Positions 27,529 to 53,240 of a DNA stretch of 64,000 nt are shown here, in pieces. This DNA comes from Leisingera thetidis (GTDB lineage Bacteria > Pseudomonadota > Alphaproteobacteria > Rhodobacterales > Rhodobacteraceae), in NCBI RefSeq assembly GCF_025857195.1, contig NZ_CP109787.1:1677501-1741500 (forward strand). Reading direction: 5' to 3'. How positions within the stretch are numbered: the stretch's first letter is position 1; the number at the start of each line of letters is the position of its first letter. Position numbers and translations under genes: made by a program. Below the pieces are notes generated by a model. It did no database searches, was not told the origin of the DNA, and saw only the letters and a program-made list of their open reading frames with translations.

Positions 27529-28581
27529 TTACGAAATGCGGATACGCGGGTTCAGGTACACATAGCCGATATCCGAGATCAGCTGGGTGACCAGCACCAC
27601 AACAACTGAGACCACAGAGACGGCCAGCAGCAGTTCAATGTCATTATTGCCGGCAGCTTCCACCAGGATCCAGCCGAAGCCCTTGTAGTTGAACAGGGTC
27701 TCGACGATCACCACACCGTTCAGCAGCCAGGGGAACTGCAGCATGATGACGGTGAAAGGCGCAATCAGCGCATTCCTGAGCGCATGCTTCAGAACGATGT
27801 TGTGAAAGCTCACCCCCTTGAGGCGCGCGGTGCGGATGTATTGCGCCGTCATCACCTCGGTCATCGAGGCGCGAGTCATCCGGGCGATATAGCCCATGCC
27901 GTAGAGCGCAATGGTCAGCACCGGCAGGAAGAAGTTCTCGAAGTTCGGGTTGTCCATCGCCGATGTGGCGGTGCCCTTGAACCATTTCAGCCCGACGGTG
28001 GAGGAGGTGAAAACCGCGATGAAGATAACACCGGACACATATTCGGGCGTTGCCGTGGTCAGGATTGAGGCTGTCGACAGGCTTCGGTCCGTCACCGAGC
28101 CTTCGCGCATCCCCGCCAGGACACCGATCAGCAGCGCCGATGGGATCATCAGCACCAGCACCCAGAACATCAGGCGGCCGGTATTGCCCAGACGCTCTGC
28201 GACGATGGTGGAAACGTCGTCCTTGAAGCGGGTGGAATAGCCCCAGTCGCCCTGCAGAATGCCGCAGAAGGTGGCGGCCTCAGCCGCCGTTTCGGGCGAA
28301 ACGGTGCCGGTCATGCAGCGGCCGGAAACGCCGTCATCGGTCTCGCGGGTCCAGCCGGGCAGGACACCCAGCCATTGGCCGTATTTCGAAACCATGGATC
28401 CGCCATAGCCATTGGCATCCAGCCAGCTGGCCACGGCTTCGTCCGACATCCGGAAGTTGCCTTGGGTTTTGGCGAGTTTCTCAAGGTTTGGGTAGAGGTT
28501 CGTCAGGAAGAACACGATGAACGTCAGGCACAGGGCCGTCAGCAGCATCACGCCCGAGCGTCGGAGAATGAAAAGTCCCAT
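27529..28581 (-). CDS. ABC importer permease (DppB-type)
   Basis: This 350-residue inner-membrane permease is the first transmembrane subunit of the family-5 importer. It has an N-terminal span (MGLFILRRSGVMLLTALCLTF), a periplasmic insert near residues 40-115 with two cysteines (GRCMTG and TFCGILQ) that might pair, the usual WGYS motif, and the cytoplasmic EAA loop (YIRTARLKGVSFHNIVLKHALRNAL, residues about 245-270). It is translated just before the second permease. Confidence 0.92.
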   Translation of the reverse strand: MGLFILRRSGVMLLTALCLTFIVFFLTNLYPNLEKLAKTQGNFRMSDEAVASWLDANGYGGSMVSKYGQWLGVLPGWTRETDDGVSGRCMTGTVSPETAAEAATFCGILQGDWGYSTRFKDDVSTIVAERLGNTGRLMFWVLVLMIPSALLIGVLAGMREGSVTDRSLSTASILTTATPEYVSGVIFIAVFTSSTVGLKWFKGTATSAMDNPNFENFFLPVLTIALYGMGYIARMTRASMTEVMTAQYIRTARLKGVSFHNIVLKHALRNALIAPFTVIMLQFPWLLNGVVIVETLFNYKGFGWILVEAAGNNDIELLLAVSVVSVVVVLVTQLISDIGYVYLNPRIRIS

Positions 28582-47826: not shown

Positions 47827-52232
<4,406 letters not shown>

Positions 52233-52262
52233 CCCGCGTTCCGGCGGGTATCCCCCGGTGAT

Positions 52263-52297
52263 GTTCCACTCTGTTCGCAAATGTTCTCAAAAAGTTC
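52263..52297 (+). promoter_or_regulatory. LexA-type operator: four phased GTTC half-sites
   Basis: GTTC occurs at 52263, 52273, 52283 and 52294. The last pair (52283-52297) is GTTC-N7-GTTC, the alphaproteobacterial LexA box. The other spacings are N6, so the half-sites are on one face of the helix. TGTTCTCA (52282-52289) also has an exact inverted copy TGAGAACA at 52318-52325. Confidence 0.7.
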
Positions 52298-52380
52298 TTT
52301 ACAGGGCGGTCTGAAAATGAGAACAAAGGGGCAACAAAATTGCCAGAGAGCAACAAGACAGACTGGAGGAGGCCCGAGCC

Positions 52381-52503
52381 ATGATTGCACAGATCAAAAC
52401 CACCATTCAGAATGCCCATTCGACACTGCTGCAGGACGCCATTGGTGCGGCCTCTCTGATGGTGATGCTGGTGGCGGCGCTGCATCTTCCAGGGCTCCTG
52501 TAA
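52381..52503 (+). CDS. 40-residue membrane peptide, putative SOS-induced
   Basis: The ORF begins MIAQIKTTIQNAHSTLLQ and continues with a single hydrophobic helix (about residues 18-40) ending HLPGLL. A very strong GGAGGAGG site (52365-52372) lies 8 bases before the ATG. The LexA-type array starts about 118 bases upstream and a strong terminator stands at 52655, so it forms its own transcription unit. By analogy, Caulobacter makes tiny SOS-induced inner-membrane division inhibitors (SidA, DidA); no sequence homology is claimed. Confidence 0.65.
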   Translation: MIAQIKTTIQNAHSTLLQDAIGAASLMVMLVAALHLPGLL

Positions 52504-52654
52504 GCCGTTCCTTTTCCTGATTGCACTGCTGTGCCGGGCCGGCCCTTTCCTGTCCCGGACTGCTCAAGGGATCAACCGCCTGTCCCGATCCCCGAATGGA
52601 TTGCCTCAAGATCCAGCCTGGCCCGCCCGGGTCCCGCACAGCAGAGCATGCCTG

Positions 52655-52690
52655 CCGCCGCCATCCTGCCCGGATGCGCGGCGGTTTTTT
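52655..52690 (+). terminator. Strong terminator of the micropeptide unit
   Basis: CCGCCGC (52655-52661) pairs with GCGGCGG (52678-52684), with an inner ATCC/GGAT stem, followed by TTTTTT. It ends a transcript with about 150 bases of 3' untranslated RNA; the stretch 52504-52787 holds no further gene. Confidence 0.8.
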
Positions 52691-52787
52691 AGGTTCTGGG
52701 GCGCGGTGAGCGTCATCAGGCCGTGCAGAAGTGCAGGGCAGCTTAGGTTCGGCTAGGGAAGGGGGTGCGGAAACGCAACGCGCGCTG

Positions 52788-53240
52788 TCAGGCGCATTGC
52801 TCCTTGGCGGCGGTCTGCATCGCCTCCAGCGTTGCCTCCAGCGCCAGCATGATCGAGGCGTGGCGGTTCTTGAAGTCCCGTGCGGGCTGCAGCACTTCCA
52901 ACCCGTCAAAGGGAGCGTCTGGCACCGGGCCGCCCTGGGTCAGCATGGCCTTCAGCTGGTCGCGGGCGGTTTCAACCTCCGCCAGTGTGCGCCCGACCAC
53001 ATTGGCCCCGACGATCGCTGCCGAGGCTTGTCCCAGCGCACAGGCCTTCACGTCCTGGCCGAACCCGGTGATCCGGCCGTCCGCAGCGTTGATATCGACG
53101 GTGACTGTGGAGCCGCAGAGCGGCGAGCGCTTCTTGACGGTGGCATCCGGATCCGCAAGCCGCTCCAGATGCGGGATATCCGCAGCCAGCGCCAGAATGC
53201 GCGAGGAATACAGCTTGATCAGATCACTATCGCCAGACAT
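52788..53240 (-). CDS. NifU/IscU-like iron-sulfur scaffold protein
   Basis: The 150-residue protein has the NifU N-terminal fold with cysteines in RSPLCGSTVTVD and VKACALGQASAAI; a third Cys is the penultimate residue and not in the usual place. It may assemble or carry Fe-S clusters, possibly for the SUF pathway. The ATG at 53240 follows GGGAAAG; the frame to 53318 has no such site. It is divergent from hisI with 76 bases between. Confidence 0.8.
   Translation of the reverse strand: MSGDSDLIKLYSSRILALAADIPHLERLADPDATVKKRSPLCGSTVTVDINAADGRITGFGQDVKACALGQASAAIVGANVVGRTLAEVETARDQLKAMLTQGGPVPDAPFDGLEVLQPARDFKNRHASIMLALEATLEAMQTAAKEQCA

Follow-up and report, generated by a model that had tools for sequence, protein, structure and literature searches.

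Directly downstream of recG, the window (the whole 64,000-nucleotide stretch of Leisingera thetidis DNA analyzed here) carries a compact unit that we read, with a probability of about 0.6, as an SOS-induced transcript of Rhodobacteraceae with two functions, encoding a membrane micropeptide and forming a small RNA with C-rich loops. An initial annotation, made from the sequence alone, had proposed an SOS-controlled unit for a 40-residue membrane peptide. The four GTTC sites, the GGAGGAGG ribosome site, the 40-codon ORF and the T6 terminator that it listed were all found again on re-reading the sequence (Table 1). The promoter and peptide parts of this description stand, while the 3' part, positions 52504-52690, is a conserved structured RNA and not just a terminator tail. 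The interpretation in terms of SOS control and a micropeptide was likely right, and the unit is larger than described.

Genomic location of the unit

The unit adjoins the repair genes ligA and recG, as initially noted, both of which lie upstream. On the downstream side it is followed, on the opposite strand, by a SufU/NifU-like gene (48.7 bits, under its curated cut-off), beyond which lies a phosphoribosyl-AMP cyclohydrolase gene. The location behind recG is shared by 114 of the 115 loci with 200 nt of upstream sequence in a pooled set of 116, some of which are the same place twice. The RecG C-terminus was recognized upstream by a script in 113 of these 115 and by eye in L306; it was not seen in the last one, L130.

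Table 1. Features of the unit and its upstream neighbor (positions in the window).
Feature	Position	Strand	Remarks
recG, upstream neighbor	50142-52232	+	NCBIfam NF008164 RecG, 1123.6 bits
Outer GTTC half-sites 1 and 2	52263-52266, 52273-52276	+	site 2 98-99% kept, site 1 less
Putative LexA operator O1, GTTCTCAAAAAGTTC	52283-52297	+	GTTC-N7-GTTC; box in 79/79 and 27/27 loci
TTTACA	52298-52303	+	possible -35 element (proposed role)
Reversed near-box O2, GAACAAAGGGGCAAC	52321-52335	+	GAAC-N7-CAAC; resembles GAACAAGAGGTGAAC of recA
Ribosome site GGAGGAGG	52365-52372	+	sequence; 8 nt before ATG 52381
Micropeptide ORF	52381-52503	+	40 aa, one predicted helix, hydrophobic C-terminal half
Conserved structured RNA	52508-52691	+	model R1 match, 76.3 bits
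Arm 1 motif CCUGUCCC	52549-52556	+	weak in the window
Arm 2, GGGAUC/GAUCCC	52568-52592	+	loop AACCGCCUGUCCC
Arm 3, UGGAUU/GAUCCA	52597-52615	+	loop GCCUCAA
Intrinsic terminator CCGCCGC...GCGGCGG-U6	52655-52690	+	stem 52655-52684, one bulge; T6 52685-52690

A conserved single-helix micropeptide

A search of 61 genomes with the peptide (E up to 1) gave matches in 34. These comprise all 21 members of the genus (with L. thetidis itself), 12 of the 16 further genomes of the family and a single one of the 24 from outside it, the latter at an E value of 0.41 that is probably due to chance. A profile built from 12 peptides matched 255 of the 295 Rhodobacteraceae genomes at E up to 0.01. Scanning GTDB contigs with the peptide confirmed 107 stretches, of which 80 were kept. 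These loci, which we take to be from roseobacters, are all labelled as Rhodobacteraceae except L095, labelled Nocardioides marinus, a label that is probably wrong.

The initial annotation named a lack of conservation of the ORF with synonymous bias as one observation that would count against it. The median dN/dS among 88 distinct ORFs of 40 codons is instead 0.23, from 2,535 of 3,828 pairs with usable pS that are not independent of one another, and mismatches amount to 0.33, 0.20 and 0.54 at the three codon positions. Ten residues are invariant in 24 aligned peptides (M1, K6, T15, L16, D19, G22, A23, L26, L34 and P37). AlphaFold2 predicts a single helix spanning residues 2-39 (mean pLDDT 84.1, pTM 0.41), and the best 17-residue Kyte-Doolittle mean is at least 1.75 in the loci scored. 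The claim of a 40-codon ORF with one membrane helix thus holds in that the ORF is conserved and, by comparison, coding; the helix is predicted, and membrane placement is suggested by hydrophobicity. No family in Pfam or NCBIfam matches the peptide, no PDB sequence does so at E up to 1, and the only matches in PHROGs are to single members, at E 0.042 or worse. The comparisons support the view that the micropeptide gene behind recG is conserved in Rhodobacteraceae, is coding and specifies a single helix.

A structured RNA fills the 3' half of the unit

The stretch of about 185 bases from the stop codon to the terminator is organized as an outer stem, mostly three enclosed arms with C-rich CUGYCY motifs, and the terminator. 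Relatives repeat CUGCCUG, CCUGUCCC and GCCUC between the stop codon and the terminator. In the window this stretch folds with -80.7 kcal/mol (z -2.93), which none of 200 shuffled sequences equals. The terminator with its T6 is present as initially stated, and it appears in the folds of all 47 diverse relatives examined; a simple terminator scan did not list 52655-52690, probably because of the bulge.

We built a covariance model, R1, from 19 RNAs of the Ruegeria group. R1 finds this place in all 58 sources that it was given (the window and 57 loci), with scores from 19.6 to 229.2 bits. Base pairs were counted in 45 of these sources, leaving out 13 that are in part weaker (L053, L058-L060, L086, L096, L105, L106, L124, L134, L140, L145 and L151). 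In the 45 RNAs, 90.8% of cells are paired as opposed to 37-48% in slid controls, both sides change in 40 of the 47 pairs (392 such cells), and none of 500 shuffles reaches any of five measures. RNAalifold, given this alignment, arrives at 31 pairs, of which 24 show changes on both sides. Its structure contains the outer stem, the terminator and arm 3 but lacks arm 2. The pair counts rest on an alignment fitted to R1, which leans towards the structure of its own model, and we therefore added tests that are free of any alignment.

For these tests, 47 RNAs less than 80% alike were taken out of 81. When folded without constraint, 46 of the 47 form the outer stem and every one forms the terminator; exactly three hairpins are enclosed in 34. 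The expected number of outer-stem pairs is 17.4 versus 7.2 in shuffled sequences, with 45 of the 47 above their shuffle mean. With the terminator excluded, CUGYCY occurs 2.98 times per RNA versus 0.49 times after shuffling, and 3 of the 47 have none; the motif is unpaired at a fraction of 0.69, as compared with 0.42 for the body and 0.48 for C residues of the body. A plain MAFFT alignment of 39 of the 47 diverse RNAs was set aside as a source of structure, its consensus being the terminator only, and the arms vary in length. The 3' half is thus filled by a covarying RNA, and its description as a terminator only did not hold.

About three equal motifs per RNA, unpaired more often than the rest, might also be expected of a protein sponge that titrates an RNA-binding protein. 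CsrB-type RNAs, the model for such a role, bind their protein through GGA loops. We know of no alphaproteobacterial protein with a preference for CUGYCY, and we consider a sponge improbable here. A small RNA that pairs with mRNAs is the reading that we prefer.

The RNA does not correspond to a described family among the sources consulted. Rfam 15 gives three matches in 52100-52800, at E values of 7-10 and all far under their gathering scores. Elsewhere in the window, positions 27774-27953 of the plus strand match the Rfam family Cis52_sRNA (RF02647), a Ruegeria sRNA, with 165.5 bits. The main text of papers on the sRNAs of Ruegeria pomeroyi and of Paracoccus, as far as it was available, does not name recG, and in the available text of a paper on 104 structured RNAs recG occurs in a reference only.

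The RNA and the peptide occur together

Under strict filters, R1 matches 182 of the 295 family genomes and misses 113. The peptide was matched in 180 of the 182, and 75 genomes have a peptide match without an R1 match. Places were listed for 150 genomes each for the RNA and for the peptide; in all 105 genomes present in both listings the RNA lies directly behind the ORF on the same strand, with a gap of -5 to 128 nt (median 4). Among 240 genomes of the class, R1 matches 8, of which three are family members and five are others at 22-25 bits. The latter five were rejected as instances of the same unit, since they lie at unrelated places where no recG end, box or peptide was seen by eye. Sequence comparison establishes the ORF, the RNA, the box described below and their coupling.

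The two genomes with an R1 match and no peptide match, G121 and G169, could have diverged peptides or the RNA alone. They agree with the idea that the ORF is untranslated and that the RNA alone matters. We regard this as highly improbable in view of the synonymous bias, of the conservation of start, length and hydrophobic half, and of the ribosome site present in the window.

The same coupling, in 180 of 182 genomes and in 105 of 105 by adjacency, bears on a different possibility, namely that the peptide is the sole product and that the RNA acts in cis only, as a 3' UTR that stabilizes the mRNA or hides its start in the manner of type I membrane toxin mRNAs. SOS-linked single-helix toxins are described in the literature available to us, and by eye the UGCCUC loop of arm 3 could pair with leaders that have GAGGCA or GGGGCA, as in the window. 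Against this, no such leader match is seen by eye in several genera of a 27-locus set, which have GGTCA leaders, and the repeated unpaired CUGYCY motifs exceed what a stabilizer needs. We thus rate a role in cis only as rather unlikely, and retain a small RNA acting in trans as the preferred reading.

The upstream GTTC array and putative LexA operators

GTTC recurs at positions 52263, 52273, 52283 and 52294, in steps of 10, 10 and 11 bases. The last two copies form exactly GTTC-N7-GTTC, as initially pointed out, and are the sole pair of the array with the LexA spacing N7. We take GTTC-N7-GTTC, or GAAC-N7-GAAC, to be the LexA box of Rhodobacteraceae, as did the initial annotation. The GTTC array of the proposed promoter was confirmed, and the second, reversed near-box O2 had been overlooked. 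A sigma-70 promoter scan found no promoter and no recognizable or standard -10 element; a minus-strand promoter and another sigma factor were weighed by eye and brought no improvement.

A lone GTTC-N7-GTTC is not rare, with 3 in the window versus 1.19 expected (at least 3 in 11 of 100 shuffles) and 153 in the L. thetidis genome versus 79 for the reversed control, and its weight rests on place and conservation. As the 80 kept loci were found by the peptide alone, their upstream DNA provides an independent test. One of them (L156) is cut at the ORF; in the 79 scored, GTTC-N7-GTTC is present within 210 nt upstream of the ORF in every one and the triple GTTC-N6-GTTC-N7-GTTC in 75. In a second set of 27 loci, from genomes mostly one per genus and with organisms partly shared with the first set, the box is found in all 27, the triple in 25 and GAAC-N7-CAAC of O2 in 26. 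The L. thetidis genome has the triple twice, at the present locus and on contig C3. The check suggested in the initial annotation, conservation of both peptide and GTTC box across relatives, thus came out in favor of both (255/295 genomes for the peptide, 79/79 and 27/27 loci for the box).

Conservation was also counted by column in 84 of 89 loci (82 distinct), chosen for carrying GTTC-N7-GTTCTTTAC, whose letters are therefore fixed by selection in this count; four loci with GTTCTTG instead of GTTCTTTAC and one that is cut were left out. In the unselected columns, the GTTC ten bases upstream is kept at 98-99%, and CAAAT, which follows it after one variable base, at 82-100%. The first GTTC of the array is kept in just 68-83% of the 82 distinct loci. 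ATGAGAACAAA is kept at 89-100%, as is CAAC, eleven bases after its GAAC, at 95-100%. The near-fixed GAAC and CAAC columns define a reversed near-box GAAC-N7-CAAC at a fixed distance.

Comparison with the boxes of recA, lexA and other SOS genes

Reading of recA and lexA loci of family members, in the same genomes, showed GAAC-N7-GAAC in front of recA in 18 of 18 and of lexA in 23 of 23, and GTTC-N7-GNTC additionally upstream in 16 of the 18 recA loci; the reading covered loci within the family. The recA promoter of Rhodobacteraceae thus resembles the present one in its pair of a forward GTTC-type and a reversed GAAC-type site, like O1 and O2. In L. thetidis the two sites are 22 bases apart from start to start at recA and 38 in the micropeptide unit, and it is the reversed site that is perfect at recA whereas the forward one is perfect here. 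R. sphaeroides LexA is said to both help and repress recA from such sites. Genes recognized by eye from translated starts as uvrA, uvrD and an imuA-like gene also lie behind such boxes in the L. thetidis genome. Most of the 25 box loci read in this genome (one place twice) had no recognized SOS gene, as expected for a motif at just twice its control count. The base before the second GTTC is A in the present box and T in the recA, lexA, uvrA, uvrD and imuA-like boxes of this genome.

That A in place of T, together with steps of 10 besides 11, the lack of a standard promoter in the scan and the extension of the array into TTTACA, could point to another regulator on the GTTC array, for example an OmpR-type activator with 10-11-base steps beside a weak -35 element. 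We find this unlikely, as O1 and O2 have counterparts of similar sequence, GTTCTCTTTTTGATC and GAACAAGAGGTGAAC, at recA in the same genomes, and the triple has a single further place in the L. thetidis genome. From its sequence, the unit is likely under LexA control. In a Dinoroseobacter LexA paper, the available text names lexA, recA, dprA and other sites, and recG is not among them.

Three observations were made on other boxes. Two GAAC-N7-GAAC boxes overlap at the lexA gene of G021 (L222), a genome of the family in which the peptide was not matched. In L. thetidis, GTTCTCTTAATGTTC (L063, box 1001-1015; G000:C1:1456228) precedes by about 65 bases an ORF of 135 residues that has hydrophobic stretches, possibly a further SOS membrane gene, and GTTCTTTATTTGTTC (L065, box 1001-1015; G000:C1:1593857) lies directly before an ORF that by eye resembles a radical-SAM protein.

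Candidate targets of the RNA

The RNA, with its equal C-rich loops, resembles small RNAs that base-pair to G-rich ribosome sites. In the L. thetidis genome, GGGACAG-N2-10-ATG has 82 occurrences versus 29 for the reversed control; this excess may say little, as the two patterns are unequal in their start-codon content. Of 30 GGGACAG loci read, 11 open an ORF of at least 100 codons (two being the same place). A sequence complementary to the loop GCCUGUCCC spans the start of the gene that precedes zapA in this genome, zapA being recognized by eye. At the start of this gene (L332, L339-L359), GGGACAGGCATG is kept in 17 of the 21 members of the genus. Its flanks are kept too, and the site is lost in the most diverged member. 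Such conservation is not selective; the site was set aside as evidence for a target, and the gene before zapA is a lead. On a small contig, GGGACAGGCAG, which is complementary to the loop consensus CUGCCUGUCCC over 11 bases, precedes a capsule-export-like gene (L338:1041-1057; G000:C8:5340).

Discussion

In the mechanism that we propose, LexA bound to O1 would repress the promoter, probably assisted by the neighboring GTTC sites and by the reversed near-box O2. DNA damage would remove LexA and give rise to one transcript of about 350-370 nt that stops at the conserved terminator. The 5' half of this transcript would encode the 40-residue inner-membrane peptide, and its 3' half would fold into a closed multi-arm RNA that presents CUGYCY-type motifs (CCUGUCCC, CUGCCUG and GCCUC) in loops. 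The likeliest role of the peptide is to slow an envelope process, division foremost, in the manner of other SOS membrane peptides. For the RNA, the likeliest role is that of a small RNA with C-rich loops, acting within the mRNA or cut out of it, which would pair with G-rich ribosome sites of its targets. In this scheme we infer that LexA binds, that damage induces the unit, that there is one transcript with these ends, and what both the peptide and the RNA do. More tentative, at somewhat short of even odds, is the fuller reading in which most Rhodobacteraceae have one such LexA-controlled transcript. It would yield both a membrane micropeptide and an RNA that acts in trans and has several equal C-rich loops; damage would thereby halt division at the protein and at the mRNA level together.

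Division-stopping SOS effectors are known in Caulobacter and in E. coli. We know of none in Rhodobacteraceae, and our searches of the open-licence literature showed none. The tisB gene of E. coli is under LexA control, and IstR is an antisense RNA. According to the descriptions available, TisB/IstR and DinQ/Agr resemble the present unit as short membrane peptides from SOS-linked genes; DinQ, too, has an antisense RNA, whereas the Rhodobacteraceae RNA lies 3' of the ORF and on its strand. In Caulobacter, SidA and DidA are tiny single-helix inner-membrane peptides that are made after DNA damage and block division, sidA being induced by LexA cleavage, as far as the text available describes them (PMC4211646). 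Since SidA and DidA block division and other SOS-linked short membrane peptides are toxic, a division block is our first guess for the peptide. The likeness is one of description, and there are differences: SidA has 29 residues and DidA 71, versus 40 for the Rhodobacteraceae peptide, and the available text mentions no RNA partner for either, unlike the peptide described here with its attached RNA (PMC4211646). EcpR1 of Rhizobiales is, like the RNA reported here, an alphaproteobacterial RNA with a conserved C-rich loop; it is stress-induced and represses cell-cycle mRNAs by way of a conserved loop. It differs in lying behind divK-pleD, in its link to the stringent response, in its dominant form of 101 nt and in being described, in the text available, as non-coding (PMC4414408).

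SOS membrane micropeptides are already known as a kind, and the novelty lies in the attached RNA. The unit is widespread in Rhodobacteraceae and has a single location there, and one transcript appears to combine effectors of two kinds. A 40-codon ORF without a match in Pfam, NCBIfam or Rfam is easily overlooked in annotation. In model roseobacters, the promoter, the peptide and the RNA family of this unit are all accessible to experiment at once.
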